This document shows, piece after piece, positions 247 through 14,829 of a stretch of 64,000 nucleotides of DNA (its first letter is position 1; each line of letters starts with the position of its first letter). Made by a program: the position numbers and the translations under genes. The stretch lies in the NCBI RefSeq assembly GCF_026242055.1, contig NZ_JAPJDL010000004.1:186001-250000 (forward strand). Direction: 5' to 3'. The notes below the pieces were generated by a model, which did no database searches, was not told where the DNA came from, and saw only the letters and a list, made by a program, of their open reading frames with translations. Source of the stretch: Lentzea sp. NEAU-D7 (lineage in GTDB: Bacteria > Actinomycetota > Actinomycetes > Mycobacteriales > Pseudonocardiaceae).

Positions 247-750
247 GGCGCTCGCTCTTCGCTAGTTCGGCTGTCTCCCTCTTCCATCCTCGCTGGTGCG
301 GTGGATCGAACACATGGCCTGACCGCGCAAGTACGGTGACCCTTTCTTGCCGGATCTCGGCAATCTCGCGGCTGATCACGCACCATGGGCGCGAGCGTCC
401 CAAGTCGGCTTGACGCCGATCGATTTTCCAGGAAGAAGTGCGTTCGTCGTCAAGCTCACGGTGCGCGGTAGTTGCTCATCGAAAGGACCTCGAAGGTTGC
501 GCGGTGCAGGCCTCCTGGAGACTGACGACAGTGATCGGCCGGGGCGGGAGTCCGAGTCCTGCCTCACCGAGAGAGAAGGCAGGCGGATCTGGGGCGACGA
601 TCCGGCGGTCGCTGCGCTGCGAGAAGACGATCTCTTGCTCGTTCTGTGCGGCATGCCGGGCTGAATCGGGTCGTGCGGCGGTAAGCTCTCCCCAGGTGTG
701 CCGGGAAGCCTGGTCGGCGTTGTTCGACGACGCCTTCTCGAGGAGTGTTC
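247..750. other. non-coding gap with leader RNA element at its end
   Basis: No reading frame here has a good start or family resemblance. The overlapping frames on both strands are Arg/Ser-rich shadows. The only structured signal I see is the conserved leader element at 691-734. Confidence 0.5.
691..734 (+). promoter_or_regulatory. recurrent leader RNA element, copy 1
   Basis: The 24-nt core at 695-718 contains GCCGGGAAGCCTGGTCGGC and is nearly identical to four other leaders in this window. Within it CCGG can pair with CTGG around a GAAGC loop. A 7-bp stem with a TTCGA loop follows at 716-734 (GGCGTTG with CGACGCC, one G-U pair). The Shine-Dalgarno AGGAG at 741-745 comes just after the hairpin. 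The downstream gene is now only a methyltransferase remnant followed by an ABC exporter. Confidence 0.6.
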
Positions 751-1137
751 ATGGACACCACCGTCGCCGGTACGGTGATCGCCCCGATGATCATCACCGT
801 TGCGGCTCAGTACGAGGAGCACCAGCTGGTCCGAGATGACCTCGCGGAGCGCATCTCGCCAGCGACCGGGCGAACGGCGGTTGCCTTGTGCCGCAAACGG
901 TACCTCGACGACCTGATCGGCATCTCAGATGCTGATGTGGTCGTGGTTCTCGGTGCTGGATTCGACACGAGGAGCGCCAGGTCTTCTCAACACGCGATTG
1001 GTTCCGATCCACTTCGAGAAACAGGTTCTCGCAAAGGTTCCCGCCGGGAAGTGGCGGGGTTCGTCAAGCTGTCAGCCTGCCTCTTGTCGACGTCGGAGAT
1101 CGAGCGGATCGTGCATTGCGTCAAGGTGTCGGCATGA
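751..1137 (+). pseudogene. remnant of LCMT-type SAM-dependent methyltransferase
   Basis: The first 85 or so residues resemble the PPM1/LCMT-like class I methyltransferases: a CRKRYLDDL helix followed by the SAM-binding motif VVLGAGFDTR. Family members run to about 270 residues. Here the frame leaves homology right after motif I, and the next recognisable piece (LVPIHFEKQ, about 1000-1030) is in another frame, so part of the middle is deleted and the frame is broken. The rest of the C-terminal half is absent. The ATG at 751 has AGGAG five bases upstream; a GTG at 745 is the alternative. The stop overlaps the ABC ATPase start (ATGA), so the surviving translation may still couple to the exporter. 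Confidence 0.7.
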
Positions 1138-2045
1138 CGTCCCCGGTGATCGATACACGCGGTCTCACCAAGCGTTATGGCGATGTCGTTGCGGTGGAGG
1201 ACTTGTCGCTGACGGTCGCGGCAGGGGAGACCTACGCGTTGCTCGGCCTCAACGGTGCGGGCAAGATGACGACGATCCGCATGCTGCTGGGCATGGTGCG
1301 CCCTACCAGCGGATCCGTTCACGTGCTGGGAACCGCTCTCGGGCCGGGCGCACACGGGCTGTGGTCACGGGTGGGCTACCTGGTGGAAACACCTGCGGCG
1401 TATCCGGAACTCACCGTCCGGGAGAACCTGGCGGTGGCGGCTCGCTTAAGAGGCGTACTCCCGCGCAGCCGCGTGAGCGAGATGATCGAGCGGCTGAAAC
1501 TGACTGCTTACGCGGACAAGCGCGCGCGAACGCTGTCGCTGGGCAATGCGCAACGACTGGGGCTGGCCAAGGCGCTGCTGCACGAACCCGACCTGCTGAT
1601 CCTCGACGAGCCCGCCAACGGCCTGGACCCGGCGGGCGTCGCGGAGATCCGCGATCTGCTGCGCGAGTTGAGCCGGGATCAGGGTGTGACCGTGGTGCTG
1701 TCCAGCCACATCCTCACCGAGGTAGCGCGACTTGCGACTCGCATCGGTGTGATCCACCGCGGCCGGCTCGTCCGCGAGCTGGAAGCGGCAGATCTCAACG
1801 CATTCCTGAACCAACGCCTGTGCGTGTCAGCTCGTGACCCGGAATCGGCCGAGCGGGCGTTGACCACCGCGGGCTTCGCACCGGTCAGGTTGGACACCGG
1901 TGCTCTCGTTCTGACCGACGCCCGGTCTGTGCGGGAACCCGACGCCGTGGCCACCGTCCTCGTGGCCGCGGGCTGCCCGCCGACCCGGCTCGTCGTCGAG
2001 CAGGACGACCTGGAGACCTTCTTCCTGCGTGAGGTGGAGTCGTGA
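1134..2045 (+). CDS. ABC-2 exporter ATP-binding protein, altered Walker A
   Basis: This 303-residue protein is a typical nucleotide-binding subunit of a two-gene ABC-2 exporter. Visible motifs are an A-loop region GLTKRYG, Walker A GLNGAGKM at residues 38-45, a signature region LSLGNAQRLG, Walker B LLILDEP, a D-loop near GLDP and an H-switch VLSSH. The residue after the Walker A lysine, which is Ser or Thr in nearly all P-loop ATPases and coordinates Mg2+, is Met45 here, followed by two threonines. ATP binding or turnover may therefore be changed. Start ATG 1134 overlaps the preceding stop; a TTG at 1116 is less likely. It overlaps its permease by four bases, so the two are cotranslated. The transported substrate is unknown. 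Confidence 0.9.
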   Translation: MTSPVIDTRGLTKRYGDVVAVEDLSLTVAAGETYALLGLNGAGKMTTIRMLLGMVRPTSGSVHVLGTALGPGAHGLWSRVGYLVETPAAYPELTVRENLAVAARLRGVLPRSRVSEMIERLKLTAYADKRARTLSLGNAQRLGLAKALLHEPDLLILDEPANGLDPAGVAEIRDLLRELSRDQGVTVVLSSHILTEVARLATRIGVIHRGRLVRELEAADLNAFLNQRLCVSARDPESAERALTTAGFAPVRLDTGALVLTDARSVREPDAVATVLVAAGCPPTRLVVEQDDLETFFLREVES

Positions 2046-2812
2046 TCGACGCGTTGGCGACCGAAGCGCTCAAGACGCGACGATCTCGCGTGCCGTTGGT
2101 GACCGCTGTGGTGTTCACCGTCGCTGTTCTGGTTGGCGGGCTGTTCATGTTCATCCTCCAAGACCAGGAGCGTGCTCGGTCACTCGGTTTGATCGGCACC
2201 AAGGCCGCGCTCGTCGGCGGTCAGGCGGACTGGCCGACGTACTTCTCCTTCCTCGCACAGATCACCGCTGTGGGCGGGATCGTGGTGTTCGGTCTCGTCT
2301 CGGTGTGGCTGTTCGGGCGGGAGTTCAGCCAGAACACCGTCAAGGACCTTTTGGCGTTGCCGACCTCCCGGACCTCGATCGTCGCGGCGAAGTTCGTCGT
2401 GGCTCTGGTGTGGTGCCTGGCGCTGACGTTCCAGCTGCTTGTCCTCGGCCTGCTGATCGGTGTGGCGCTCGGCCTGCCGGGTCTGTCCGCGGAAGTGCTT
2501 GCTCGCGGCGCGGCGGTGATCGTCGCGACCGCGGTGATGACGATGCTGCTCACCACGCCGATTGCGTTCGCGTCCAGCGTCGGCAGGGGCTACCTGCCGG
2601 GATTTGGAGTGATCATCGCTTCTGTCTTCTGCGCGCAGATCGTCGCCGCGCTCGGCTACGGCCGGTACTTCCCATGGTCGGTCCCGGCGTTGTTCAGCGG
2701 TCTGGCGGGTCCGGATCAGGTGCCGACCGGCGTGCTCGGCGTGGTGCTGGTCGGAGCGACGGGGGCGGTGGCGACCGCGTTGTGGTGGCGCAACGCCGAT
2801 CAGGACCGCTGA
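2042..2812 (+). CDS. ABC-2 type permease subunit
   Basis: This 256-residue integral membrane protein has about six helices. A short cytoplasmic amphipathic start (ATEALKTRRSRVPLVT) is typical of ABC-2 permeases. The motif FGREFSQNTVKDLLALP after the second helix is the usual coupling region that contacts the ATPase. The GTG at 2042 overlaps the ATPase stop in a GTGA arrangement. The two subunits should form a dimer-of-dimers exporter for a drug, lipid or peptide; nothing nearby identifies the cargo. The final 13 bases overlap convergently with the DUF6653-type gene. Confidence 0.88.
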   Translation: MIDALATEALKTRRSRVPLVTAVVFTVAVLVGGLFMFILQDQERARSLGLIGTKAALVGGQADWPTYFSFLAQITAVGGIVVFGLVSVWLFGREFSQNTVKDLLALPTSRTSIVAAKFVVALVWCLALTFQLLVLGLLIGVALGLPGLSAEVLARGAAVIVATAVMTMLLTTPIAFASSVGRGYLPGFGVIIASVFCAQIVAALGYGRYFPWSVPALFSGLAGPDQVPTGVLGVVLVGATGAVATALWWRNADQDR

Positions 2813-3282
2813 CCCTGGTGGCGCTCCCACAGCCAGCCGAAGCGGTCGATGCGCCACAACTGTGCCATCACGACCACGGTGGTGCCGAAGACCGTCGGCC
2901 ACACCTCCAGGGCGATCAGACCCCAGAGGATCAAGCCGAATCCGATGACGCCGACGGCGACCAGCAAGCGCAGCACCGCACGGTGGTCGGGCGGTACGAG
3001 GTCGTGGTTCTCGAGCCAGGCGCGCTCGCCGTAGATGCCCCGCGCAGCCCAGCTGCGCGGTTCGCGCACAGGCGGGAACGCTCGCGGATTGACGAACAGC
3101 CAGACGACCACAGCACCGATGGGCAGAAGACTCCACCAGCCGATCCACGTGCGGCTCCAGACAGCCAGCAGCATCAACGGAATCGCGGCGAATCGCGTCC
3201 AGACGCTCCACGGGTTGGCGTGCCGTTGCCATGCTTCGTCTGTCATGCCGAAGGCCTTCGCGACGCGGTCAGCCACGTCCAT
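2800..3282 (-). CDS. DUF6653-type membrane protein
   Basis: The product has 160 residues if translation starts at ATG 3282, which has GGAGGAG seven bases upstream; a longer frame to 3321 is less likely. It opens with a soluble helix and the conserved-looking stretch HANPWSVWTR, followed by two helices, a loop carrying NPRAFPPV and ERAWLENHD, and two more helices near residues 100-140. This resembles the DUF6653 family as I remember it. The function is unknown. It follows the broken glycosyltransferase on the same strand with a 14-base overlap, so it is probably in the TetR-glycosyltransferase operon. Confidence 0.75.
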   Translation of the reverse strand: MDVADRVAKAFGMTDEAWQRHANPWSVWTRFAAIPLMLLAVWSRTWIGWWSLLPIGAVVVWLFVNPRAFPPVREPRSWAARGIYGERAWLENHDLVPPDHRAVLRLLVAVGVIGFGLILWGLIALEVWPTVFGTTVVVMAQLWRIDRFGWLWERHQGQRS

Positions 3283-4520
3283 TGTGGATCTCCTCCAGGT
3301 CGCGGACGGCTGTGCCGACACCGTCTTCCCCGCGGATCTGCTCGCTGAGGTCGATGGCGCGTTGCTGGAGCGCGGGATCGCTCACGGCTCGAGTGATCGC
3401 GTCGCTGAGCGAGGTGACGGTGATGTTCCGGTGGGGAAGTGGCGGAGGGGCAACGCCGACAGCGTGCATCCGCTGCGCCCAGTGGGGTTGATCGGCGACG
3501 AACGGGCAGATCACCTGGGGCAACGCCTGCCGCCAGAGCCGCGGCGGTGGTTCCTCCTCCGCCGTGGTGCACGACCGCTGCCACCTTGCCGAACAGCCAG
3601 TCGTGCGGCGCCTGGTCGATGACGAGGAGGTCGTCGGACGAGCGTGTGGCCAGCCCGCCCCAGCCGGTGGCCACGACCGCGCGCACCCCCGCATCTCTGA
3701 CCGCATCGGCGACGATGTCGCCGATGCGCTGGGCGTCTCGTCCCGCCATGCTGCCGAAACCGAGGTAGACAGGCGGCGGACCCGCCTCCAGGAACGCCCG
3801 CAGCGACATCTCCGGTGACCACGCCGCGTTCCGCGGCAGGAGCCAGAAACCCGTGGTCCGCACGGATTCGGGCCATGCGGGATCGACCGGTGTCACGGCT
3901 GAGCTGAACGCCTGCAACACCAGGGCGTGGTCTGGGCCGCGACCACGTGCCAGTCCGAGGTCGTCGGCGCGCCAGGTGTTGACGACACCGTTGTAGGCGC
4001 GCATGGTCGCCGACACCGTGAGATAGGTGGCCCGGTTGAGGAACCGGGGAACTCTCGGCAGCGGCACCATGGGACAGGGGAACTCCGAGGTCGGCACCCA
4101 ACCGGGCTGCAGCGTGGCCAGAACGGCAGGTACGCCGAGCAGTTCCGCCGCGTGCTGTGCGGGCACACTCGGCGAGTGCACCAGCAGATCTGCGCCGGAG
4201 GAGCATGCGACCGCACCGACGTCGCGCAGCACGTCCGCCATCAACGGCTTGATGCGCCGGATCGTCGAGATCGCTGTGAGCTTGCCGCGCACACCCCTGT
4301 ACCCGCCCTCGATCGCCTTGACCATGGTCGGGTCGCGAAGCAGCCTGTTCGGTCCCTCGTCGAGCGGCGCGAACTCCACGTCGTAAGAGACAGCGCTGTC
4401 AGCGAAGGACGCGGGAGCGGCGAGCACCGCATCGTGGCCTGCCCGTCGGAAAGCCACCGCGAGCGCCAGGAACGGTTGCACATCGCCACGCGTGCCGTGG
4501 GTGACCAGCAAAGCTTTCAC
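3269..4520 (-). pseudogene. MGT-type glycosyltransferase with frameshift
   Basis: This GT-B fold, family 1 glycosyltransferase resembles macrolide and sterol glycosyltransferases. The start MKALLVTHGTRGDVQP (GTG 4520) carries the HGTRGD acceptor-domain loop, and VYLGFGSMAG opens the nucleotide-sugar domain. The donor motif HHGGGGTTAAALAAG then loses frame: the expected PQVICPFVADQPHWA continues one frame over. One extra base near 3521 (GTTGCCCCAG where one base fewer keeps frame) splits the gene, and the second frame runs to a stop at 3269. Without recoding, the donor-sugar site is lost. RBS GAGAGGAA precedes the start and the gene overlaps the TetR stop (GTGA). A sequencing error is possible because everything else is intact. 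Confidence 0.8.
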
Positions 4521-5125
4521 CGACTGTTCCTCTCGTCGATCGCGGTGAACGCGGCGAGCCAGCGGTCGTCGGCGAACAGGCCGTTGGTCAGCATTTCCAG
4601 ACCGGCGCGAGCGCCACGTACCGCTGTCGCGGTCTCGGCCGGGTCGCCGCCCAGCAGCCGGCCGACGTGATCGCCGAGCACCAGCGGTGCCAGCAACCAC
4701 GAGACGTAGGTGACCGTTCGCGCTCGTGCGTCCGCTGAAGTGCGAACCCAGCCCTCAGCCTCACCGGTCTCGAGCCACGTTTCCGTGCGTTCGACGATCT
4801 CGGCGAACAGCGCACGGGCCGCCGGGGTGTCGTCGAGCAACGCTCTCGCCAGGTAACGCCGGACCGGTGTCGCCGCCTGCAGCACCTCTCCCAAAGCCTC
4901 GGAGGCCGCTTCACCGCCGCTGCGGATCGAGTCGAGGACGTAGTCGTCGCAAGCCTGCCGGAGTCCGTCCTTCGAGCCGAAGTGGTGCACCACCAGCGCG
5001 GGCGAGATCCCGGCATCCGCGGCCACCGCGCGGACCGACGTGCCCGCGATGCCGTCGGTGCCGAACCGGGCGAGTGCCGCGTCACGGATACGAGCCCGTG
5101 CCGTCAGATCGGAGACTGAACGCAT
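4517..5125 (-). CDS. TetR family transcriptional regulator
   Basis: The 202-residue product starts at ATG 5125. The N-terminal helix-turn-helix (residues 10-55) has the typical pattern RIRDAALARFGTDGIAGTSVRAVAADAGISPALVVHHFG (positions about 10-48, key residues A16, F19, G23, T27, V38 and H43). The C-terminal part is the ligand and dimer domain. It is cotranscribed with the glycosyltransferase (GTGA overlap) and divergent from the CPA1 antiporter. The simplest reading is a repressor of its own operon, perhaps also acting on the antiporter promoter in the shared 160-bp gap. The ligand is unknown. Confidence 0.88.
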   Translation of the reverse strand: MRSVSDLTARARIRDAALARFGTDGIAGTSVRAVAADAGISPALVVHHFGSKDGLRQACDDYVLDSIRSGGEAASEALGEVLQAATPVRRYLARALLDDTPAARALFAEIVERTETWLETGEAEGWVRTSADARARTVTYVSWLLAPLVLGDHVGRLLGGDPAETATAVRGARAGLEMLTNGLFADDRWLAAFTAIDERNSR

Positions 5126-5136
5126 GTTCTGATTAT

Positions 5137-5150
5137 TGAACGTCTGTTTA
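5137..5150. promoter_or_regulatory. possible TetR operator
   Basis: The sequence TGAACGTCTGTTTA is an imperfect inverted repeat (TGAAC against TAAAC on the other strand). It lies 12 bases upstream of the regulator start in the divergent gap. Position and spacing suit TetR autoregulation; the match itself is weak. Confidence 0.3.
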
Positions 5151-5208
5151 GTCCGCGTCCAGGCCAGTCGGTTTGCTTTGCTCGGAGCTTTACGGCATCT
5201 TGGCGCGC

Positions 5209-5259
5209 GGTGCGCCGGGAAGTCTGGTCGGCAACGCTCATCACGAACTCGTGGTGGGC
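5209..5259 (+). promoter_or_regulatory. recurrent leader RNA element, copy 2
   Basis: The core at 5209-5232 contains GCCGGGAAGTCTGGTCGGC. A 10-bp stem-loop follows at 5236-5259 (GCTCATCACG with CGTGGTGGGC, two G-U pairs, AACT loop). It sits 27 bases before the antiporter start. Upstream it shares TTACGGCATCTT with copy 5. Confidence 0.65.
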
Positions 5260-5285
5260 CTGGTCGACGTGGGCGGAGTTCTTTG

Positions 5286-6497
5286 ATGGCGCTGGTTCTG
5301 GCGTTCGGTGTAGTCCTGCTGATCAGCGTCTCGCTGTCCGGTCTCGCCGCCCGCACCATCCTGTCGACGGCGTTGATGTTCCTGGTGGCGGGAGCGTTGA
5401 TCGGCCAAGGTGGCCTCGGGCTGGTCGACATCCCGTCCAACAGCGGGTTCGTCACAGTTCTCGCTGATCTCGCGCTTTTCACCGTCCTGTTCACCGACGG
5501 TCAGCGGGCAGGCTTGCCCGACCTGAAGCAGGGGTGGCGGCTCTCGGGCAGGGCGCTGGGCCTGGCCATGCCGCTGACCATGGTCGGCATCGCCGTGCCG
5601 ACGCACTTCCTCACCGGACTGGACTGGACGACGTCGTTCCTGATCGGCGCGATCCTCTCGCCGACCGACCCCGTGTTCGCCTCCGCGATCGTGGGCCGCA
5701 CCGACGTACCCGCGCGGCTGCGGCGCCTGCTCAACGTCGAGTCCGGACTCAACGACGGTCTCGCGCTGCCGTTCGTGCTCATCTTCCTGGCCACGGCCGC
5801 CAACAAGGACACCGATTTCGCCACGATCGGCATCGAACTGGTCGCAGGGCTCGCTCTGGGCGTCGTGATCCCCGCCGTCGTCGTGCTGTCGTGGCGGCTG
5901 CGGATCTTCACCGCCGAACCGCGGCTGCAAGCACTGGGGCCCCTGGCCATCGCGGTCATGCTGTACGCGGCCTGCCACCTGACGCACGCCAACCCCTACC
6001 TCGCCGCGTTCGCAGCCGGGTCGACCATCGCCACCCTGGACCGTGTCGCGGCAGAGCACTTCGAGCACTTCGGTGACCTGCTGTCGGAGATCACGAAGTT
6101 CGCGGCGCTGCTCGTCTTCGGCGCGCTGATCACACCGGAACGCCTCTCGCACCTGACCGTGGGGGACTGGGCGGTCGCGGTCATCGCGATCCTGCTCGTG
6201 CGCCCGGCGGCGATGATGTTGTCGCTTCTGCGCACACCCCTGCCCGCACGCGAACGTTCCGCCGCAGCATGGTTCGGCCCGAAGGGCTTCGCGTCGGTGG
6301 TCTACGGGCTTCTCGTCCTGCAAGCCGGGATCCCGACCGGTGAGCACGTGTTCGACCTGGTGGCGATCACCATCGCCTTGTCGATCGTGCTGCACTCCTC
6401 GACGGACGTGCCCGTGGCCAAGGCCCTGAGTTTCGAGCCTCCGGACGGGCTCCCCACAGGCAGGCCAGACGACCGAAAGGAGCGCGAGCAGGCCTGA
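5286..6497 (+). CDS. CPA1 family Na+/H+ (or K+/H+) antiporter
   Basis: This 403-residue protein has about twelve membrane helices. Family landmarks are the helix-5 motif SPTDPVFASAIVGR and the helix-6 motif NVESGLNDGLALP, which carries the Asp used for cation and proton exchange. It exchanges monovalent cations for protons across the cell membrane for pH and salt control. ATG 5286 is chosen because GGAG lies six bases upstream and the membrane protein starts there (MALVLAFG); the frame runs further upstream with non-native sequence. It lies behind leader element copy 2 and overlaps the next small membrane gene (TGATG). A close paralogue lies at 16520-17737. Confidence 0.92.
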   Translation: MALVLAFGVVLLISVSLSGLAARTILSTALMFLVAGALIGQGGLGLVDIPSNSGFVTVLADLALFTVLFTDGQRAGLPDLKQGWRLSGRALGLAMPLTMVGIAVPTHFLTGLDWTTSFLIGAILSPTDPVFASAIVGRTDVPARLRRLLNVESGLNDGLALPFVLIFLATAANKDTDFATIGIELVAGLALGVVIPAVVVLSWRLRIFTAEPRLQALGPLAIAVMLYAACHLTHANPYLAAFAAGSTIATLDRVAAEHFEHFGDLLSEITKFAALLVFGALITPERLSHLTVGDWAVAVIAILLVRPAAMMLSLLRTPLPARERSAAAWFGPKGFASVVYGLLVLQAGIPTGEHVFDLVAITIALSIVLHSSTDVPVAKALSFEPPDGLPTGRPDDRKEREQA

Positions 6498-6745
6498 TGG
6501 GATCGCCGAACCTGACCCTCGTGTGGGCGGCGCTGGTGATGCTGTCCTTCTTCGCCATCCCGCGGCGTCACTGGTACGTGCAGTTGCCCGCTGTCCTCGG
6601 CTGGGCGTTGGTGTGGTTCGACGGCGAGTTCACAGGTCACTGGACGGACTCCCTAGGACTCGCCGTCGCCGGCTTCAGCTTGCTGTGGCTGTGGTTCGGC
6701 ACACCTTCCGACAACACTGAGCGACGGGGCCACCATGAGCCCTGA
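6497..6745 (+). CDS. small membrane protein cotranscribed with antiporter
   Basis: This 82-residue protein has three predicted helices (about residues 6-22, 28-42 and 50-67) and a hydrophilic tail. The start overlaps the antiporter stop by one base and the end overlaps the next gene by 11 bases, so all three are one translationally coupled unit. I do not recognise the family. A role alongside the antiporter, such as an accessory subunit, is inference from position only. Confidence 0.7.
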   Translation: MGSPNLTLVWAALVMLSFFAIPRRHWYVQLPAVLGWALVWFDGEFTGHWTDSLGLAVAGFSLLWLWFGTPSDNTERRGHHEP

Positions 6746-7553
6746 TGCGGAAGCGGTGTTGCGCGAACGGTGGTCGCGCAGCCAGCGGTACGTCACAGCG
6801 TTCTCCGTGTTCCTGCCGGCGTTGCAGTTCCTGCCCTGCACGGCGATCGTCCTGCTGGCAGGTGGTGGAATCATTTCGTCGGCGGCGATTGCGCTGGTGC
6901 CGATTGCTGTCGCAGCACTGGCACTGCGCCACTGGCTCCGCCGCCAGACACCTCTCGACCCGTCGTCATGGTTGCCCGCCGCGGCCATCGCAGTGGGAGC
7001 GCAGCAACTGTCCATCGCGATCCCCGGGTATGGCATTGCCACCGGCAGAACACATGACGAGCTGACCGGGCCGACCGTCTTGTTCTTCGGCAGCTGGAGT
7101 GTCGCGGCCGCGACCTGCGTGGCAGCTCATCGCGCGAGCCGAGCTCTTCTCAAGCCGCTCATCGCCGAGCTCGGATCAGCTGATGTGCGCTTGCCGCTCG
7201 ACGTGCGGGCCGCGGTCAGCGGCCCTGAACTCGTGTCGGCTCAGATCGTGGTCGATCATGACCGTGTCGAGTGGACCGTGCGCTTGTACGCGGGCCTTGG
7301 TCGGGGTTCGCGGTTGGACAACTCGGTTCCGTTCCGCGAACTCATCCGCGTGTTGCCGGTGACCTTGCCAGCTGTTCCCGTGCTGCGGCCGTGGACCGTT
7401 CTGCCCGGAGGCATCACGTTGTACGCCCAAGCAGGGCCGGCTGTCCTGTTGACCTCCATGAACGACGAGTGGCTCATCCCTGTGCACGACGCGGTGCTCG
7501 TCACCGAACTGCTGAACCGTCGCCAAGAACTGTGGGTACTGGGAACGAACTGA
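6735..7553 (+). CDS. membrane protein, paralogue of the 13297-14382 product
   Basis: The 272-residue product has four hydrophobic helices in the first 130 residues, then a soluble C-terminal domain of about 140 residues rich in beta pattern. It aligns along its length with the gene at 13297-14382: shared landmarks are PSSWLPA, AHRASRALL, IAELGS, the DHDRVEWT region and a final WLIPVHDAVLV matching WTVPAHEAAAM. That paralogue carries an extra YbaB-like domain which this one lacks. The function is unknown. It ends the antiporter operon and may be a membrane-anchored accessory of cation stress, which is inference from both copies being near antiporters and leader elements. Confidence 0.75.
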   Translation: MSPDAEAVLRERWSRSQRYVTAFSVFLPALQFLPCTAIVLLAGGGIISSAAIALVPIAVAALALRHWLRRQTPLDPSSWLPAAAIAVGAQQLSIAIPGYGIATGRTHDELTGPTVLFFGSWSVAAATCVAAHRASRALLKPLIAELGSADVRLPLDVRAAVSGPELVSAQIVVDHDRVEWTVRLYAGLGRGSRLDNSVPFRELIRVLPVTLPAVPVLRPWTVLPGGITLYAQAGPAVLLTSMNDEWLIPVHDAVLVTELLNRRQELWVLGTN

Positions 7554-7576
7554 CTCACGCCCGGCCAGGCGGTGAG
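7554..7576 (+). terminator. possible hairpin terminator
   Basis: CTCACGCC can pair with GGCGGTGAG (one bulge, six-base loop) immediately after the stop of the antiporter operon and before the convergent TrkA-type gene. There is no T-tract, as is usual in high-GC actinobacteria. Confidence 0.35.
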
Positions 7577-7631
7577 CTGAGTCGGCAGTGGACGTGGCCG
7601 ATGTTGGGCGTCGAGGACGGCTGAAGAGCGC

Positions 7632-8210
7632 TCAGGGCTGTTCGGCGCAGACTTCGAGGAGCAGGTCTCCCTCGCGCAGCACGTGCGGCTCGGCTTGATC
7701 ACGCCAGTGGCGTGTGTTCTCCCGCGTGGCGGCGAGTACTTCAGGGGCGCACTCAGTCAGGCGCAGGCCGATCTCGTTGCGCAGGACGGCTCGCTCGACG
7801 AACACCAGGTCCTCGAGCTCGCACGTGCAGTCGTCTGGCGGCGACGCGTCCTCGACGACGCGGTCAGCGCCGAGGTACAACCCCACTTCCCGCCAATGCG
7901 GCTCGTGGAAGGCGACCATCACGATCGCCTGGTCGTTGAGCCAGCGAACCGCGCACAGGATGCGCAAGGCGACAGCGTCGTCCGCTACCGTAACGATCAC
8001 CCGTGTCGCGCGCGGGACGTCGGCTTCGCGCAACGCGGTGACATCGGTGCCGTTGCCGAGCACAGACCGGGCCCCACGCTGCGATACGAGGTTGGCGCGA
8101 GCAAGATCGGTGTCGATCACGGCCAGGGACCCGAGCTGGGGCCCGAACATCGCTCCGAGCACCCGCTGCCCACGCTCGCCGTAGCCGATCAAGACGGTGT
8201 GTGAATCCAA
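7632..8210 (-). CDS. TrkA-N domain protein
   Basis: The 192-residue product is a Rossmann-fold regulator of K+ transport. The NAD-binding motif GYGERG sits near residue 9, an acidic residue ends strand 2 (VIDTD), and GARSVLGNGTDV is the usual substrate-independent turn of RCK/TrkA-N proteins. The C-terminal 60 residues end in a short TrkA-C-like segment (LREGDLLLEVC). No pore is attached or adjacent, so it should be a soluble gating or sensing subunit of a distant channel or antiporter. The start is probably TTG 8210 with AGGAG five bases upstream; longer frames would translate the leader RNA. Leader element copy 3 precedes it. Confidence 0.82.
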   Translation of the reverse strand: MDSHTVLIGYGERGQRVLGAMFGPQLGSLAVIDTDLARANLVSQRGARSVLGNGTDVTALREADVPRATRVIVTVADDAVALRILCAVRWLNDQAIVMVAFHEPHWREVGLYLGADRVVEDASPPDDCTCELEDLVFVERAVLRNEIGLRLTECAPEVLAATRENTRHWRDQAEPHVLREGDLLLEVCAEQP

Positions 8211-8230
8211 AGCAACTCCTGGATGGCGGA

Positions 8231-8268
8231 GCGGCAGATCAGCCGCCGACCAGACTTCCCGGCACACC
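8231..8268 (-). promoter_or_regulatory. recurrent leader RNA element, copy 3
   Basis: The core at 8245-8268 on the minus strand contains GCCGGGAAGTCTGGTCGGC. It is followed by the hairpin GCGGC-TGATCT-GCCGC at 8231-8246. The element ends about 21 bases before the TrkA-type start, with the Shine-Dalgarno in between. Confidence 0.65.
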
Positions 8269-8328
8269 TGGGAAGGAAGGATAACCGATGACCGACCAAC
8301 TGAGCGCCGTCCAGATCCTGGTGCGTTG

Positions 8329-9660
8329 TCAGCCGTCTGCGGGACCGCGATTCCTTGCTGCCGCACTGCTTCTCGTATTCGTTGCCTGCTGATGCACGTC
8401 CGGGATGCCGTCGTTGTCCGCGTCGAGAGTCTCTTCCTCGTGGATCCGGCGGTACACCCTGTTGCGCACGCGAAGGATCACGGTCGCGATCAGCGCGGAC
8501 AGCACCGAGCCCAGCAGCACGGCCACCTTGGCGTTGCTGTAGTCGGCGCTGCCCTCGCCGAACGACAGTTCGCTGATCAGGAGTGAGACGGTGAACCCGA
8601 TGCCGGCGAGAATCGACAGGCCGACCACGTCGATCCAGGCCAGGTCGTCGTCCAGATCGGCCTTGGTGAACCGCGCGACCAGCCAGGTGGCCGCGGTGAT
8701 GCCGATCGGTTTGCCCAGCAGCAGCCCGAGAACGATGCCGAGCGTCACGCTGTCGGTGAGCGAGGTGACGAAACCGCTCAGGCCTCCGATCGAGACGCCG
8801 GCGGCGGCGAAGGCGAAGATAGGAACGGCCACACCGGTGGACAGAGGCTGCCACCGGTGCTGGAAGATCTCGGCCAGGCCGGGGCCCTCGCCAGATTTGC
8901 GGATCACCGGCACGGCGAATCCGAGCAGCACGCCCGCCACGGTTGCGTGGATCCCGGAGGCGTGCATGAGTGCCCACGTCGCCACCGCGAGGGGAATCAG
9001 CAGCCACCACGACCGGACGCGTCGCTGCACGAGCACGGTGAACAACGCCAGCGGGACGAACATCAGCAGCAACGGCACCAGTGACAGGTCGTCGGTGTAG
9101 AAGAGGGCGATGATCACGATGGCGATCAGGTCGTCCACAACGGCGAGGGTCAGCAGGAACGTGCGCAGCGCGGAAGGCAGACACCTGCCGATGACCGCGA
9201 GCACCGCGAGCGCGAACGCGATGTCGGTAGCGGTGGGGATGGCCCAGCCGGACAACGCGGGGCCGCCTCCGAGGTTGATCGCGACGAAGATCAACGCCGG
9301 GACGAGGACGCCGCCGAATGCAGCCGCGATCGGGACGGCGGCGCGGCGGGGATCGCGCAGGTCGCCGGCGACGAACTCGCGTTTGAGTTCCAGGCCGGCG
9401 ACGAAGAAGAAGATGACCAGCAGGCCGTCGGAGGCCCATTCGGCGAGACTGAGGCGCAGGTGCAGCGATTCAGGGCCGATCTCGACGGTGCGCAGGGTTT
9501 CGTAGATCGATGCCCACGGCGAGTTGGCCCACACCAGGCCCACCACTGCCGCGATCAGCATGATGACGCCGCCGACGGTCTCCAGGCGGAGCAGGTCGGC
9601 GATGCGCTTGGTCTCGGGCCAGGACGCGCGGCTGAACAGCCGGGTCTTCACGGGTTCCAC
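8329..9660 (-). CDS. nhaA: Na+/H+ antiporter NhaA
   Basis: This 443-residue protein has the NhaA layout: about twelve helices, [17 protein letters not shown] near residue 100, [17 protein letters not shown], and the paired aspartates of the ion site in [17 protein letters not shown]. NhaA exports Na+ or Li+ in exchange for protons and is activated at alkaline pH in Escherichia coli. A charged tail of roughly 40 residues ([12 protein letters not shown] and onward) follows the last helix. GTG 9660 has GGAG six bases upstream. Leader element copy 4 ends close to this Shine-Dalgarno, suggesting control at translation. The TrkA-type gene follows downstream behind its own leader. Confidence 0.95.
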
Positions 9661-9671
9661 AGCTCACTCCG

Positions 9672-9713
9672 GGTGTCGTCGGCCGCAACGCCGACCAGAC
9701 TTCCCGGCACACC
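9672..9713 (-). promoter_or_regulatory. recurrent leader RNA element, copy 4 (before nhaA)
   Basis: The core at 9690-9713 (minus strand) contains GCCGGGAAGTCTGGTCGGC. This copy has the clearest fold: GTCGGC pairs with GCCGAC around GTTGCG, and the outer GGTGT pairs with ACACC at 9672-9676, enclosing a CCGG-GAAGT-CTGG hairpin. The 3-prime strand of the outer stem abuts the nhaA Shine-Dalgarno. Confidence 0.7.
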
Positions 9714-9794
9714 ATGCCGCTCGTCACGGCAACGGTCCGACCGTACCTCACGATCAGGCAGCGGGCCTGTCGATGTGATCTTGTCCGGAACGGA

Positions 9795-10091
9795 TCAGGT
9801 TGATGTCCCGCGGTTCCGCCACGTCTGGACGATGACGACCACCGGGCCGCACGCGGTCACCGCCGCGCCGATCGCGATCAGCACGGTCGATGACAGCGAC
9901 ACGCCCGTGATGACCACCACCAGGCCAACGGCGTAGATCAGCAGCAGGCCGATCAGCCTCAGCACACGCGGCGGCAGCAGGCGATGCGGTGGCGGCGTTG
10001 TGGCGAGTTTGGCTGCGAACGTGGGATCGTCCTCGGCGAGACGTTGCGCGATGTCGTCCAGTTCGCGCTGCTCGTCCTCGGCCAATCCCAT
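9795..10091 (-). CDS. DUF3040 family membrane protein
   Basis: This 98-residue protein starts MGLAEDEQRELDDIAQRLAEDDP, the acidic amphipathic helix that marks DUF3040, followed by two membrane helices (about residues 42-60 and 63-82). DUF3040 proteins are small actinobacterial membrane proteins without an assigned function. ATG 10091 lies nine bases after GGAGG; GTG and TTG codons just upstream in frame are less likely. It lies downstream of the SPFH/NfeD pair on the same strand with a 45-base gap. A second DUF3040 gene is at 57106. Confidence 0.8.
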   Translation of the reverse strand: MGLAEDEQRELDDIAQRLAEDDPTFAAKLATTPPPHRLLPPRVLRLIGLLLIYAVGLVVVITGVSLSSTVLIAIGAAVTACGPVVVIVQTWRNRGTST

Positions 10092-10136
10092 TGTCACGCA
10101 CCTCCCCAACCCGCCACATCGACTATTCGCGCCTGC

Positions 10137-11183
10137 TCAGCGATCCGCCAGTTCCGGTCGCAGCGCGGACCGCGCGTTCACCGGTTCGGCGGCTTCTGCC
10201 GCGTCCGCGACCGCTTCGGCAGCGGCCTCGCTCGCCCGGGCCACGTCCTTCTCTGCCTGTGCCGCGGCAGCCTCGACGGCTTCGTCAGGCTTGGCGGCGG
10301 CCGCCGATCGCGGCAGCACATCGGAGAACGCCTTCGAGACGTCTTGCAGTGCGGTGGTGACCTCGCTCGGAATCACCCAGAACGTGTTACCGGGACCCTC
10401 CGCGAGCTTGGGCAGCATCTGCAGGTACTGGTAGGCGAGCAGCTTCGGGTCGGGGTCGTTGCGGTGCACCGACTGGAAGACCTGGTCGATCGCGCGGGAC
10501 TCGCCTTCCGCCTTCAGGATCGTGGCGGCCCGGTTTCCTTCGGCGCGCAACACGGCGGCCTGCTTGTCGCCCTCGGCCGTGAGGATCTGCGACTGCCGCT
10601 GCCCTTCGGCGTTCAGGATCGCGGCCCGCTTGTCGCGTTCGGCCCGCATCTGCTTCTCCATCGCCTCCTTGATGCTCTGCGGCGGGTCGATGGCCTTGAT
10701 CTCCACCCGGTTGACCCGCAGGCCCCACTTACCGGTCGCGTCGTCGAGCACACCGCGCAACTGGTTGTTGATCGTGTCGCGTGAGGTGAGGGTCTTCTCG
10801 AGATCCATGGACCCGACGACGTTGCGCAGGGTGGTGACCGTGAGCTGCTCGACCGCCTGCAGGAAGCTGGCGATCTCGTAGGCGGCGGCGCGGGGGTCGG
10901 TGACCTGGAAGTACAGCACCGTGTCGATCTCCACGACCAGGTTGTCCTCGGTGATCACCGGCTGCGGCTGGAAGGACACCACCTGCTCGCGCAGGTCGAT
11001 CGCCGGGTAGACGCGGTCGATGTAAGGGATGACGAAGTTGAGACCGGGCTTGAGGGTGCGCTGGTAGCGGCCTAGACGTTCGACGTTGCGCGCTCGGGCC
11101 TGCGGCACGATGCGCACGGCGCGCAGGACCGTGAACGCCGCGAAGATCGCGAGCACGAGTCCGGCGACGAGCAATGTGGACAT
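10137..11183 (-). CDS. SPFH/band 7 membrane protein
   Basis: The 348-residue product has an N-terminal membrane anchor (residues 2-22), then an SPFH domain (about 25-200) with the characteristic start ARNVERLGRYQRTLKPGLN and DNLVVEIDTVLYFQVTDP. A coiled-coil of repeated AEG units (AILNAEGQRQSQILTAEG and on) spans about 205-260, as in stomatin and QmcA-type proteins. The C-terminal 60 residues are Ala/Glu-rich and low in complexity. Such proteins form membrane-associated oligomers that scaffold proteases or lipid domains. ATG 11183 has a GGGAG site. It is four bases from the NfeD stop, the classic NfeD-SPFH pair. Confidence 0.92.
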   Translation of the reverse strand: MSTLLVAGLVLAIFAAFTVLRAVRIVPQARARNVERLGRYQRTLKPGLNFVIPYIDRVYPAIDLREQVVSFQPQPVITEDNLVVEIDTVLYFQVTDPRAAAYEIASFLQAVEQLTVTTLRNVVGSMDLEKTLTSRDTINNQLRGVLDDATGKWGLRVNRVEIKAIDPPQSIKEAMEKQMRAERDKRAAILNAEGQRQSQILTAEGDKQAAVLRAEGNRAATILKAEGESRAIDQVFQSVHRNDPDPKLLAYQYLQMLPKLAEGPGNTFWVIPSEVTTALQDVSKAFSDVLPRSAAAAKPDEAVEAAAAQAEKDVARASEAAAEAVADAAEAAEPVNARSALRPELADR

Positions 11184-11187
11184 GGAC

Positions 11188-11619
11188 TCACTCCCGTGGA
11201 TAGACGACGGCGGTGGTGCCATCGATGTGCAGAACGTCGACCGTGCTTCCGGCGGGGATGACGAGCGACTCGTCGTACGGACGGGCCGTCCAGTCCTCGC
11301 CACGGAGGCGCACGAGGCCCTCGTGGCCGTTCACCTCGCGGAGCACGTAGGCCGAAGCGCCGACCAACGCTTCCACGCCGAACCGTTCGAGCCGCGGCTG
11401 CAGCATCATTCGCCGCGCCCAGGGCCTGATGAGCACCACACCGGCGGTGGACACGACGCTGAACACCACGAGCTGGCCAAGAAGCGGCAGACCGATCGCC
11501 GCCGTCCCCGCCGTGGCGACAGCCGCGGTGGCGAGGATGCCCAGTGCCGCGGTGAAGGTGAAGATCTCAGCGATGGCCAGCACCAACGCGATGACCAACC
11601 AGATGAGCCAGGGATCCAT
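11188..11619 (-). CDS. NfeD family membrane protein
   Basis: This 143-residue protein has three to four closely packed helices (residues 3-60) and a C-terminal OB-fold domain (about 80-143) with the typical EALVGASAYVLREV and GSTVDVLHIDGTTAVV segments. It lacks the N-terminal ClpP-like protease domain of long NfeD proteins, so it is the short class. NfeD partners stomatin-type SPFH proteins in the membrane. GGGAGGG precedes ATG 11619. It is the first gene of a two-gene operon. Confidence 0.9.
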   Translation of the reverse strand: MDPWLIWLVIALVLAIAEIFTFTAALGILATAAVATAGTAAIGLPLLGQLVVFSVVSTAGVVLIRPWARRMMLQPRLERFGVEALVGASAYVLREVNGHEGLVRLRGEDWTARPYDESLVIPAGSTVDVLHIDGTTAVVYPRE

Positions 11620-11751
11620 GGTGCGACCCTCCCTAGGTGGAGGTACGCCTCGAACGTGCGACGTCTCCCCTTCATCGTGGATCCGATCCTGTCCGGCGGA
11701 CAGGTGTCCGCCCGGCCAGTTGGACCGCCGTTGCCTGCCGGTGCCCGGCAA

Positions 11752-12873
11752 TCAGCGGATCGGCGCAGCCTGGGGCCAGCCGAGCAGGCGCGCACCGAGC
11801 ACCGCCACCTGAAGGGTGAACGCCTGGGCGGGATCGTCGGCGCGGTAGCCGGTCAGTTCGCGCACCCGATCGAGGCGGTAGGTGACTGTGCGCACGCCGA
11901 CGCCGAGATTCTTTGCGGTAGTGGTCGTCACCCGCCCGGAAGCGAAGTACGCCTCCAGCGTGTCCATCAGACGCTCAGCCCCTCCGCGAGCGCCCAGCAG
12001 CGGCTCGAGCACGGCGGTGACGAGTTCGCCGAGTGCCGCGCTGTCACGCTGAAGTACTTGGTAGACCAGGAGATCGGCGGCTTTGACGAGCCGCTCGCTC
12101 AGGTTGAGCCGTTCGGCGAGGTCGAGGGCGTTGCGGGCCTGTTCGAAGGAGCGGACCGCGCCTCCGGGACCGGACTGCGGCTGGCCGAGACCGACCCGCC
12201 ACGCGGAGGTCCGTCCCACCACCTCACCGACCTGACGCGCGAACTCCTCAGGCGCGCCTTCGAGGTTGTGCGGGACCACGCACACCAGGAGGCCTTCGCG
12301 CGCGGCCACGAGCACATGGCGGGAGCTGAACCGCAGACTCATGGCGGCCTGGACACTCGGGGTCGCCGTACCCGAGTCGAGGAACGGCTCGGACGTGGAT
12401 GCCGCTGCGACGACGTTCGTGCCGGCGAGCTGCAACCCGTACCGCTCCGCGCGTTCCGCGAGCTGGCCGAGGTCGCGCCCGGTGAGCAGGTCGTCGATGA
12501 ACTCGTGACGCAGCGACTCATCGCGGCGCAGGGTCCAGCGCTGGCTCTCCTCGTAGCCCTTGGTCAACTCGCCGACGGCATCCTCCGCCGCCTGGAACAA
12601 GGCGTCACCAATTCGTTTCAGCGCGTCGGCGCTCGCTGCGGCGTCCTCGCCGGGCAAGGTGGCCCAGGTTCGCCCTGTCGCCTCGAGATACCCCTTGATC
12701 AGCTCGCGCAGCGGCACCCCGCGCGCCGCAGCGTCGGCACCCGTGTCGTGCAGGTCACGCCGTTCTTTGGCCGAGAGCGATCTTCTCGCCCGGCTGATAT
12801 CTCGTAGTGCCTGAACGAACACCGGCACATCCGCAGTCATCTTGTGCGGCGCTGGGCCGGTCTTCCTGGTCAT
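11752..12873 (-). CDS. PucR family transcriptional regulator
   Basis: This 373-residue protein has the layout of actinobacterial PucR/CdaR-type regulators: an N-terminal helical domain (about 15-110), a GGDEF-like middle region with SFEQARNALDLAERL, and a C-terminal helix-turn-helix (about 310-360, TAKNLGVGVRTVTYRLDRVRELTG split as TAKNLGVGVRTVTYR then LDRVRELTG). These proteins usually activate nearby catabolic or transport genes. GGAGG lies five bases before ATG 12873, and the start overlaps the SRPBCC stop by four bases, so it is in a three-gene operon with the SRPBCC and YbaB-domain genes. Confidence 0.9.
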   Translation of the reverse strand: MTRKTGPAPHKMTADVPVFVQALRDISRARRSLSAKERRDLHDTGADAAARGVPLRELIKGYLEATGRTWATLPGEDAAASADALKRIGDALFQAAEDAVGELTKGYEESQRWTLRRDESLRHEFIDDLLTGRDLGQLAERAERYGLQLAGTNVVAAASTSEPFLDSGTATPSVQAAMSLRFSSRHVLVAAREGLLVCVVPHNLEGAPEEFARQVGEVVGRTSAWRVGLGQPQSGPGGAVRSFEQARNALDLAERLNLSERLVKAADLLVYQVLQRDSAALGELVTAVLEPLLGARGGAERLMDTLEAYFASGRVTTTTAKNLGVGVRTVTYRLDRVRELTGYRADDPAQAFTLQVAVLGARLLGWPQAAPIR

Positions 12874-13274
12874 GTGACCTCCGTGGAGTCAGGCGCGAGC
12901 TCAGCGCGGACCTCGGAGGCCAATGCCGTCAACGCTTCATCGATCCATGCGTCGACACGCGTCCTGCGCACGCCGCGCGGTACGTGCAGGTCGACCGACA
13001 CCACGCTCGTGTTGTCGCCGAGCCGGAGTACCCGCAGCCGGCCCGAGTAATCGGCACCGCTGTCGGAACCCCACTGGACGCACAGTCGCTTCCAGTCGAT
13101 CATGATTGGCATCTCGACATCCCGGTCGCGGAACCACAGGCGCAGAAGTCGCGGCCCCGAGAGCTCGGTCTCGACACCTGGTGGCAACCACGCCGTGTTC
13201 GCCAGGTCGGCGGCGATCTGGAACACGGTGTCGGCGTCAGCAGGGATCGAACGGCTTCGTGGCAACGCAGTCAC
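12870..13274 (-). CDS. SRPBCC-fold (polyketide cyclase-like) protein
   Basis: The 134-residue product begins TALPRSRSIPADADTVFQIAADLANTAWLP; the RSIPADADTVFQI strand-helix start and the C-terminal helix (DAWIDEALTALASEVRAEL) are the START/SRPBCC signature. These proteins form a hydrophobic ligand cavity; the ligand cannot be read from sequence. GTG 13274 is the only start compatible with the preceding stop at 13297, although AGGAG is only two bases away, so the true start could be slightly different. It overlaps the PucR gene (ATGA). Confidence 0.7.
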   Translation of the reverse strand: MTALPRSRSIPADADTVFQIAADLANTAWLPPGVETELSGPRLLRLWFRDRDVEMPIMIDWKRLCVQWGSDSGADYSGRLRVLRLGDNTSVVSVDLHVPRGVRRTRVDAWIDEALTALASEVRAELAPDSTEVT

Positions 13275-13296
13275 ACTCCTTTGTGGACTTCGGAGC

Positions 13297-14382
13297 TCAA
13301 GCGGCGAGCTCGGCGACTTGCTGCGCAAGAGCGGGCAACGCCTCCGTCCTCTGTTTTGTCGCGTACCGCTCGACCATGAGGTGCTGGACCTGCTTGCGAA
13401 CAATCCTGTGCGCCTCGACGATGCACACCATGAGATCCGCAGAGACGAGCTGAGGGCTCTTCCCCTGAATTCCTTCGGTCAACGCGATGCCGGTGGTGAC
13501 CCCGTCCGCGTTCACCGTCACCGAGACGGAGCCGTCGTCAGTGGACGAAGTCGCCTTCGCGGCGCCGAGCAGTCGCATCATCTCGTGGTACCGAGCGCGT
13601 TCCTGCTCGATCGCAGCCTCGACGCGCTGTTCCCACCGCGTCTTCCGTCTGCGTAGCAGCGCACACATCGCCGCCGCCTCGTGCGCGGGAACCGTCCACC
13701 GGCCCGACGAGGTGTGCAGCACCAAGGCGGGCGATGTGCCTTTGTCCACGCTTGCCATCGTGATGTTCACGTCGTGGAGGTTGCGGAAAGACACGCCCGC
13801 ATCGAGCCGGCCACCTGCGGTGCGACAGGTCCAGTCGACTCGGTCGGTGCCGATGATGATGCGGGACAACGAACTGCGGAACACCAGCTGGAGCGGAGTG
13901 GAACCGAGCTCGGCAACCGGCGACGCGAGCAACGAACGGCACGCGCGCCGGGCGAGCGAGCACGCCGATCCCGCGCTCAGAATCCCGAGGGCGAGCAACG
14001 CTTTCAGTGCCACAGCGGTCCCGGTCGCCGAACGCAGGGCCACGCCGAAACCCGGCACCACGCCGAACACGAGTTGGCTGCCGGTCATCAGCACTGTCGC
14101 GGGGAACCACGAGGCGGGATCGGTGAGACCGTCGCGACGCAGCCACGCCACAAGCGCTACGGACAACAGGGCCGCCACGACAACGGGAATCACCGACCAT
14201 GTCGTCGCTGAGACAGCCGGGTGGGGAAACAGCGCGAACGTCAGGCAGATCAACACGAGCAACGCGGGAAGACCCACCATCGAGGCCAGCAGGAGCACTC
14301 TAGCGTGGTGCCATCGTGCGGCCAGAGCGACAGCTACTTGTGGGCTGTCGATCATCGGAATCATGCGGGGAATCAAAACCAC
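13297..14382 (-). CDS. membrane protein with C-terminal YbaB/EbfC-like domain
   Basis: The product has about 361 residues. The N-terminal 250 match the 6735-7553 product: four helices, then a soluble domain with PASWFPA, ARRACRSLL, VAELGS, TDRVDWT and WTVPAHEAAAM. Residues about 260-340 form an added module: a coiled helix (QERARYHEMMRLLG), a SVSVTVNADGVTTGIAL hairpin and a closing helix, the pattern of YbaB/EbfC nucleoid-type proteins found in actinobacterial ESX-like loci. The combination of a membrane anchor and a YbaB fold is unusual. GTG 14382 has GAGG six bases upstream; ATG 14364 is possible. Leader element copy 5 lies about 205 bases upstream. Confidence 0.75.
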   Translation of the reverse strand: MVLIPRMIPMIDSPQVAVALAARWHHARVLLLASMVGLPALLVLICLTFALFPHPAVSATTWSVIPVVVAALLSVALVAWLRRDGLTDPASWFPATVLMTGSQLVFGVVPGFGVALRSATGTAVALKALLALGILSAGSACSLARRACRSLLASPVAELGSTPLQLVFRSSLSRIIIGTDRVDWTCRTAGGRLDAGVSFRNLHDVNITMASVDKGTSPALVLHTSSGRWTVPAHEAAAMCALLRRRKTRWEQRVEAAIEQERARYHEMMRLLGAAKATSSTDDGSVSVTVNADGVTTGIALTEGIQGKSPQLVSADLMVCIVEAHRIVRKQVQHLMVERYATKQRTEALPALAQQVAELAA

Positions 14383-14829
14383 GGCACACCTCACCCCTAG
14401 CGGTCCTGTGGCGTGAACGCCTTGCAGGACGGGAGTAGAAGAGCAGCTCGAACCGAGTGCCCGCCAAGCCGGGAGAACGCGCGGTTCAGCGTTCGGGCGG
14501 ATGGCCCGTCTTGCTCGACAGGGGGAGGAAACATGCGGAGGAGGATGATCGAAGCCGGGGCATGGCACCTCAAGTCGTGTATCCGTTCGTCACCGTGTTG
14601 TGACGGACGGGCCGACCAGGCTTCCCGGCGCTCCACCCATAAAGATGCCGTAAGAACGTTCGCAAGGCAAACCCCGGATGAACCACCCGCATTCAGAGGG
14701 GTCACTGTCGCCGCATGTCATCGGCAGATCGACCAGACGTTCAGGTCGGTGCGAGCCGGTGAGCTGGCTGGACAGCTTGGTGAGCATCCTCCGATCGGAT
14801 GATGCTCACCGCTTGCCTCGTATGCTTCG
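14383..14829. other. non-coding gap with leader element copy 5
   Basis: This stretch would be the 5-prime leader of the YbaB-domain gene. It contains the conserved element at 14589-14634. I find no convincing reading frame; those present are Arg/Pro-rich and lack a ribosome site. Confidence 0.5.
14589..14634 (-). promoter_or_regulatory. recurrent leader RNA element, copy 5
   Basis: The core at 14611-14634 (minus strand) contains GCCGGGAAGCCTGGTCGGC. A hairpin GTCAC-AACACG-GTGAC follows at 14589-14604. TTACGGCATCTT upstream matches copy 2. The first downstream gene is the YbaB-domain membrane protein about 205 bases on. Confidence 0.6.

Follow-up and report, generated by a model that had tools for sequence, protein, structure and literature searches.

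A short element that recurs in a 64-kb stretch of the Lentzea sp. NEAU-D7 genome (64,000 nucleotides of contig NZ_JAPJDL010000004.1, hereafter the window) is well supported by sequence comparison as a cis-regulatory structured RNA, which is what the original prediction for this DNA had proposed. This conclusion is based on compensatory changes in its stem, a fixed place at the probable start of the mRNA, antiporter genes downstream in two phyla, and two predicted expression platforms. The explanation that we favor, and judge to be probable, is that the element is a 25-nucleotide (nt) RNA sensor at the mRNA 5' end whose hairpin, P1, competes with an alternative helix, and which switches on genes of cation homeostasis. 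In this model P1 would be the sensor, and one of its arms could instead pair with RNA further downstream. The alternative helix would abut or reach the ribosome site in Actinomycetota, turning translation off, and would form an intrinsic terminator at most of the sites seen in Chloroflexota, turning transcription off; a signal that stabilises P1 would turn on Na+/H+ antiporters and other cation-homeostasis genes.

Structure, distribution and downstream genes

The structure of the element, its gene association, the competing helices and the terminators were all computed. The 19-nt core, GCCGGGAAGYCTGGTCGGC, is found five times in the window with 0 mismatches, on the strands and at the positions originally reported, when only 0.17 matches (with up to three mismatches) are expected by chance; none of 100 shuffles reached five. 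All five copies are in the sense orientation and each lies 5' of a gene, as had also been claimed. The 24-nt core described at first is real, but it falls short of the conserved unit, which is 25 nt long and consists of GGNGN, the core and one further nt (GGNGN-GCCG-GGAAGNCUGGU-CGGC-N).

P1 is made up of a closing pair (U.G or C.A), four Watson-Crick pairs and the nearly invariant 11-nt loop GGAAGNCUGGU, with GGNG as a 5' tail. In 143 leaders, G occupies positions -5, -4 and -2 in 99% or more of cases; further 5', from -18 to -13 relative to the core, lies a TANNNT-like -10 box (T 0.49, A 0.62, T 0.57). Because the element is located just 3' of this -10-like box, it probably sits at the 5' end of the mRNA, with transcription starting at about GGNG.

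Covariation was scored on a set (model R1) of 57 distinct rows, 56 of which were used, one own-genome row with a broken pair having been dropped beforehand. Two-sided compensatory changes affect three of the four Watson-Crick pairs (three of five with the closing pair counted): C2-G18 becomes U-A in 4 rows, G1-C19 in 3 and C3-G17 in 1, and the three pairs have 0 unpaired cells. The covariation score of 0.122 exceeds those of all 500 shuffles and all slid structures (maximum 0.073). The open reading frames (ORFs) after the compensated variants resemble NhaA or an ABC-transporter ATPase, mostly as judged by eye. Twenty variant places had been fetched: seven were added to the set (L171-L176, whose gene names were assigned by eye, and L188), L187, L189 and L190 repeat loci already present, L179 was excluded although genuine-looking, and nine (L177, L178, L180-L186) are without a convincing gene start nearby. 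One of the nine, L180, has loop U15 changed to G and an ArsB-like N-terminus 149 nt on, and may be genuine.

Of 163 leaders, 112 close P1 with U.G or C.A (mean 64.2 and maximum 84 after permutation) and 2 with C-G, versus 22.9 expected, as if a wobble shape were required at this position. Sensing of pH by an A+.C pair alone was rejected, since the closing position is U.G in 69 of the 163 leaders. Also rejected were a hairpin within the core, CCGG/CUGG, which is often preferred by free folding, shows no two-sided change and has a broken pair in 3 rows, and a G-quadruplex of four GG tracts, because the compensated variants alter G17 or G18.

The whole assembly (9.3 Mb) contains 13 exact copies of the core, 1 with one mismatch and 2 with two mismatches. 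Seven exact copies and the one-mismatch copy are found within 19 kb of contig C34 (the window's five included), and 3 exact copies on C4. At L014, to the left of the window (C34:185327-185345), the single mismatch breaks C2-G18 and no nearby gene start is convincing, the best candidate being 202 nt away; this copy is probably decaying.

A scan of named genomes located the core in at least 119 stretches outside this genome; the titles of 113 name Actinomycetota, and among the matches listed the exceptions are L024, L077, L091, L099, L101 and L114. Five matches on viral contigs, which lack the GGNG part, were set aside as chance. Of 396 genomes sampled from the phylum, 106 carry the 24-mer when as many as two mismatches are tolerated (a reversed control gave 15 matches by our own count), and within the window's class the 25-position covariance model detects the element in 191 of 246 sampled genomes at E<=1 and in 161 of 246 at E<=1e-4 (again our own count). 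In the phylum of a Chloroflexi metagenome-assembled genome, 14 exact sites are spread over 12 of 151 genomes (the seed included), and 18 of 151 have sites with up to two mismatches. A Pseudomonadota control (the phylum of a Mesorhizobium), which was allowed one mismatch where the Chloroflexota search was allowed two, gave 1 of 249 genomes, the seed itself, with no ORF found after the site.

A total of 174 sites were examined, of which 172 have a downstream ORF and 171 were scanned against Pfam (a degenerate own-genome copy in L007 was omitted). The 13 own-genome ORFs include NhaA (3), LCM methyltransferase (3), CPA1 (2), YbaB (2), TrkA_N (1) and FAD-binding (1) proteins. Among the 158 from other genomes, NhaA is by far the most frequent (86), followed by Na_H_Exchanger (16), Mrp/NuoL-type (6), CBS (6), ABC (4) and PPDK_N (3) families, then P-type ATPase, Na/Ca exchanger and ArsB/CitMHS/NhaB (2 each) and TrkH, TrkA and pyrophosphatase (1 each). 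A disjoint recount by sequence similarity places cation transporters after 112 of these 158 sites (NhaA 86, CPA1 14, Mrp 6, ArsB-like 2, P-type ATPase 2, Na/Ca exchanger 2), the NhaA and CPA1 sets being without overlap; the other 46 include CBS proteins, ABC ATPases, PPDK-like enzymes and hydrolases. The element precedes nhaA across many genera, and of 10 proteins scanned at Chloroflexota sites 9 are Na_H_Exchanger and 1 is PP2C; at L237 and L238, also Chloroflexota, the ORF after the element resembles NhaA by eye. Genes that follow the element in this genome or that of Lentzea alba also include LCM-type methyltransferases and FAD oxidoreductases (L002, L005, L006, L007, L008, L086), and at L056, L084 and L096 the element stands before three genes resembling PPDK_N (phosphoenolpyruvate synthase-like).

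Predicted competing helices and terminators

CGACC occurs between the core and the start codon in 56 of 151 leaders (23.8 in shuffles), and CCGACC, the complement of GGUCGG in the core, in 30 of 151 (9.8 in shuffles). The same segment is also enriched in ribosome-site words, and in 34 of the 74 leaders with GACC this motif begins 15-20 nt 5' of the start codon. The 3' part of the core (U12-C19) together with the downstream segment folds to -15.4 kcal versus -12.8 kcal when shuffled (149 leaders, p 3.6e-14). The 5' part with the same segment does not differ from shuffles (p 0.42), nor does the downstream segment alone (-7.77 versus -7.77 kcal, 149 leaders), and for the latter reason an independent hairpin 3' of the core was rejected as a conserved feature. 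Because only the 3' part folds beyond shuffles, the downstream RNA seems, in these folding models, to have been selected to pair with the 3' arm of P1. A longest-helix test with G.U allowed showed no enrichment.

The ribosome site opens more cheaply in the model once P1 is locked. In 148 leaders, the cost for -18 to +3 drops by 3.85 kcal versus 1.67 kcal in shuffles (p 1.5e-11), and that for -13 to -5 by 1.56 versus 0.67 kcal (p 8e-4).

The core runs directly into an intrinsic terminator at 9 of the 14 exact Chloroflexota sites (L228-L233, L235, L237, L238), and likewise at L114, a Ktedonobacteraceae contig. These terminators, each built with an arm of the core, precede CPA1, NhaA-like or PP2C genes. 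At L230, GGAGUGCCGGG pairs with CCCGGCACUCC and is followed by UCUUUUCUUU; at L228, ACUGGU pairs with ACCAGU ahead of a U-rich tail. When the core plus 18 nt was compared with shuffled downstream sequence, z-scores at the nine sites and L114 ranged from -1.9 to -3.8. Since one arm of the sensor doubles as a terminator arm, P1 and the terminator should be mutually exclusive. Read by eye, the Shine-Dalgarno sequence at L225, L226 and L236 (at L236 also the AUG) seemingly lies in a helix or loop to which the 3' arm of the core contributes; of the three, L236 alone has a z-score to match (-3.3). A terminator scan found the L228 terminator and missed that of L230, whose loop by our own reading exceeds the tool's 3-8 nt limit. 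In an earlier set, 3 of 169 leaders have a run of about 5 T in the first 75 nt, a count that misses tails of four T, as at L114. Three lines of prediction point to an expression platform that cannot coexist with the sensor fold: the anti-P1 helix, ribosome-site opening and the terminators.

The five copies in the window

Copy A (695..719, + strand; 43.3 bits, E 4.3e-08) precedes a frame-broken LCM methyltransferase 5' fragment at 751-1137 (+; PF04072, E 6.8e-06). Its predicted competing helix pairs 716-723 with 727-734 (8 bp, +), directly 5' of a Shine-Dalgarno-like GAGGAG at 740-745. A methyltransferase remnant with an exporter had been reported here; the remnant stands, while for the supposed exporter, the ORF at 2029-3348, Pfam gives nothing at E<=0.001. 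Within 751-1837 the methyltransferase ORF stops at 1137, and L005 and L007 have 285-codon ORFs; the shortened ORF represents a pseudogene or a sequencing error.

Copy B (5209..5233, +) precedes a CPA1 cation/proton antiporter (Na_H_Exchanger) gene at 5286-6497 (+; PF00999, E 1.2e-38), copy C (8244..8268, -) a TrkA_N gene at 7632-8210 (-; PF02254, E 1.3e-15), and copy D (9689..9713, -) nhaA, encoding an Na+/H+ antiporter, at 8329-9660 (-; PF06965, E 6.4e-133), so that all three gene assignments made earlier are borne out. The separate hairpin said to follow each core fares differently. At copy B the 10-bp hairpin (5236-5259) is real, but it is inserted in the loop of a predicted competing helix on the + strand in which GUCGGC (5227-5232) pairs with GUCGAC (5263-5268). 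At copy D the 6-bp hairpin at 9678-9695 is not separate at all: GUCGGC of the core itself (9695-9690) supplies its 5' arm, which pairs with GCCGAC at 9683-9678 (-), and this helix would therefore compete with the core's hairpin. Anti-P1 pairing explains both structures. The predicted competing helix of copy C pairs 8247-8242 with 8235-8230 (-).

Copy E (14610..14634, -) lies before a YbaB-like gene at 13297-14394 (-; PF02575, E 0.00012), as had been proposed, although the score of 22.7 is below the curated cut-off of 25.5. The start chosen by composition is 216 nt downstream of the element; an alternative is the GTG at 14568 in the same frame, 42 nt downstream. A possible competing helix, read by eye without folding, pairs GUCG (14616-14613) with CGAC (14577-14574) on the - strand. 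An ORF of about 55 codons, also read by eye, runs from ATG 14563 through 14397 (-), stops immediately ahead of the YbaB-like start (14394), and may encode a leader peptide.

In 7 of 172 leaders a second promoter-like pair, GGTTTGC ... (A/G)CGGCAT, is found at a fixed 10-11 nt before GGNG: at copy B (5160-5208), copy E (14635-14690), L001, L030, L040, L086 and L117. The pair is perhaps recognized by an alternative sigma factor. A second CPA1 antiporter gene at 16520-18013 (-), similar in DNA sequence to 5286-6497, is without the element; about 160 nt 5' of it, a weak partial match at 18171-18186 (E 0.018) keeps GGTGTGCCGGG with the loop lost, and may be a decayed copy.

Alternative explanations and comparison with known RNAs

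A single 25-nt sensor, two platforms opposed by P1, and antiporters of three unrelated families together look like an ON riboswitch; a conserved sensor with covarying structure lies in what the probable transcription start would make the 5' untranslated region. The gene set points to Na+ or to a signal that rises with Na+, such as alkaline pH, and NhaA of S. coelicolor is said to act in the alkaline stress response (PMC12892944). We infer from these features that the switch acts in the ON direction in vivo and that an ion or nucleotide is recognized directly by the RNA itself; our guess for the ligand is Na+ or else a related cue, ionic or alkaline pH. A bolder proposal is that the element defines a new class of riboswitch, whose 25-nt sensor would directly bind Na+ (or respond to alkaline pH) and serve as a main sodium-stress switch of actinobacteria, translational there and working through terminators in Chloroflexota; we hold this to be a real possibility, but slightly doubtful on balance. 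If it is true, the sensor is possibly the smallest natural one. If Na+ is what it binds, it would be a natural ion sensor of minimal size and would account for sodium and pH control in actinobacteria, antibiotic producers included. Its size puts the element within reach of direct structural study, and its two expression platforms can be compared around a single common sensor.

A number of observations weigh against this model. A 25-nt aptamer would be very small, and the methyltransferase, FAD oxidoreductase, PPDK-like and hydrolase genes have no obvious tie to cations. By simple counts the covariation is less striking: the number of pairs with a two-sided change (3, versus a mean of 1.4) is equaled or exceeded in 23 of 500 shuffles, the number of cells paired is matched in 47 of 500, and the number of cells with a two-sided change in 298 of 500. 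Relatedness of the sequences inflates such counts and weakens all p-values, and the occurrence of different pair changes in different genomes is the stronger argument. Base 20 shows no covariation with the downstream NGCC. The mean unpaired probability of the Shine-Dalgarno sequence is lower with P1 locked (0.448 free, 0.380 locked; 128 leaders), against 0.407 and 0.382 in shuffles (p 0.003). This measure goes the other way, and so only the opening-energy measure supports the ON direction in Actinomycetota. In the energy model locked P1 lies 12.7 kcal above the free ensemble, and it would therefore need a ligand, a loop fold outside the energy model, or kinetic control. Finally, four of the 14 Chloroflexota sites (L225, L226, L227 and L091) have no excess structure in the core plus 18 nt (z -1.2 to 0.8).

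The main rival, which would give the same pattern, holds that P1 is the site of a stabilising protein that senses salt or pH, much as ribonucleic antiterminator (RAT) hairpins are bound by BglG/LicT-type proteins. The size of P1, its single hairpin with an invariant loop and its overlap with terminators all fit such sites, and a regulon controlled by a trans-acting factor would account for many targets dispersed over one genome, here 13 exact copies. However, the Pfam families listed for the directly downstream genes include no recurring regulator family (other neighbors being untallied), and the two phyla would need to have this factor in common, although a regulator need not be linked to its targets. 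We regard this explanation as unlikely, but as deserving serious attention. A conserved trans-acting RNA that targets the loop would account for the very high conservation of the loop sequence; the stem covaries in cis, however, and the partner would have to stay constant across two phyla, which makes this very improbable. Nearly the same low standing, if anything a shade lower, belongs to the idea that the core is the DNA operator of a transcription factor just 3' of the promoter. The fixed distance from the -10-like box and the inverted repeat GCCG...CGGC are what such an operator would show, yet the 11-nt middle is asymmetrical and still the most conserved part, the closing pair favors U.G/C.A and avoids C-G, contrary to the dyad symmetry of DNA, and the downstream complement and terminators act on RNA. 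Mobile or repeated DNA with no regulatory role, the alternative raised with the original prediction, could be suspected from the eight copies (7 exact, 1 with one mismatch) clustered within 19 kb of one contig. Beyond the element itself, those copies have only promoter sequence in common, and that not always; nhaA and the same gene families follow the element in many genera, and a mere repeat is hard to reconcile with the gene association and compensatory changes. We find this explanation scarcely credible, although no search aimed at target duplications was made.

The cis-regulatory sensor that we favor corresponds to no recorded family in the comparisons made. Rfam 15 gave 0 matches over the whole window at gathering thresholds; at E<=10, the 14 own-genome loci gave 4 matches, none at the core, and the leader at 5180-5300 gave 4 unrelated minus-strand matches with E 2.4 or worse. 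This comparison covers the copies of this genome, loci from other genomes lying outside it, and at the copies tested there is no match to nhaA-I or nhaA-II, the classes suggested earlier, nor to any other Rfam family, Na+-I included. No description of the element was found in the literature searched, which included passages of three genome-wide motif surveys (PMC11109978, PMC8632094, PMC6429828).

Riboswitches for small cations are among the closest known systems. The Li+-I and Li+-II riboswitches (nhaA-I and nhaA-II) likewise lie in leaders of nhaA and other monovalent-cation transporters and activate expression (PMC9646797); the main text of that paper does not contain the word actinobacter-, and its nhaA-I aptamer construct '73 nhaA' has stems P1 and P2, unlike the one 4-5 bp hairpin in 25 nt found here. 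Na+-I (DUF1646) and Na+-II riboswitches are sodium-responsive leaders of cation transporter genes; DUF1646 is described with two extended stems, P1 and P2, a larger aptamer than the present one (PMC9337991). The element shares with Li+-I, Li+-II and Na+-I the association with nhaA and monovalent-cation transporters (NhaA 86, CPA1 14 and Mrp 6 of 158). In size and platforms the element resembles the preQ1-I riboswitch, a very small sensor with terminator or Shine-Dalgarno platforms, but one that is about 34 nt long, forms an H-type pseudoknot and controls other genes. The RAT hairpins of the BglG/LicT/SacY systems are also small and overlap a terminator; they differ in their downstream genes, no phosphotransferase system (PTS) or BglG-type family appearing among the Pfam families listed for the downstream proteins here (25 of 36 families in one set, other neighbors not being scanned). 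Overall, the element looks like an unrecorded on-switch of actinobacteria and some Chloroflexota, perhaps responsive to salt or to a related cue.

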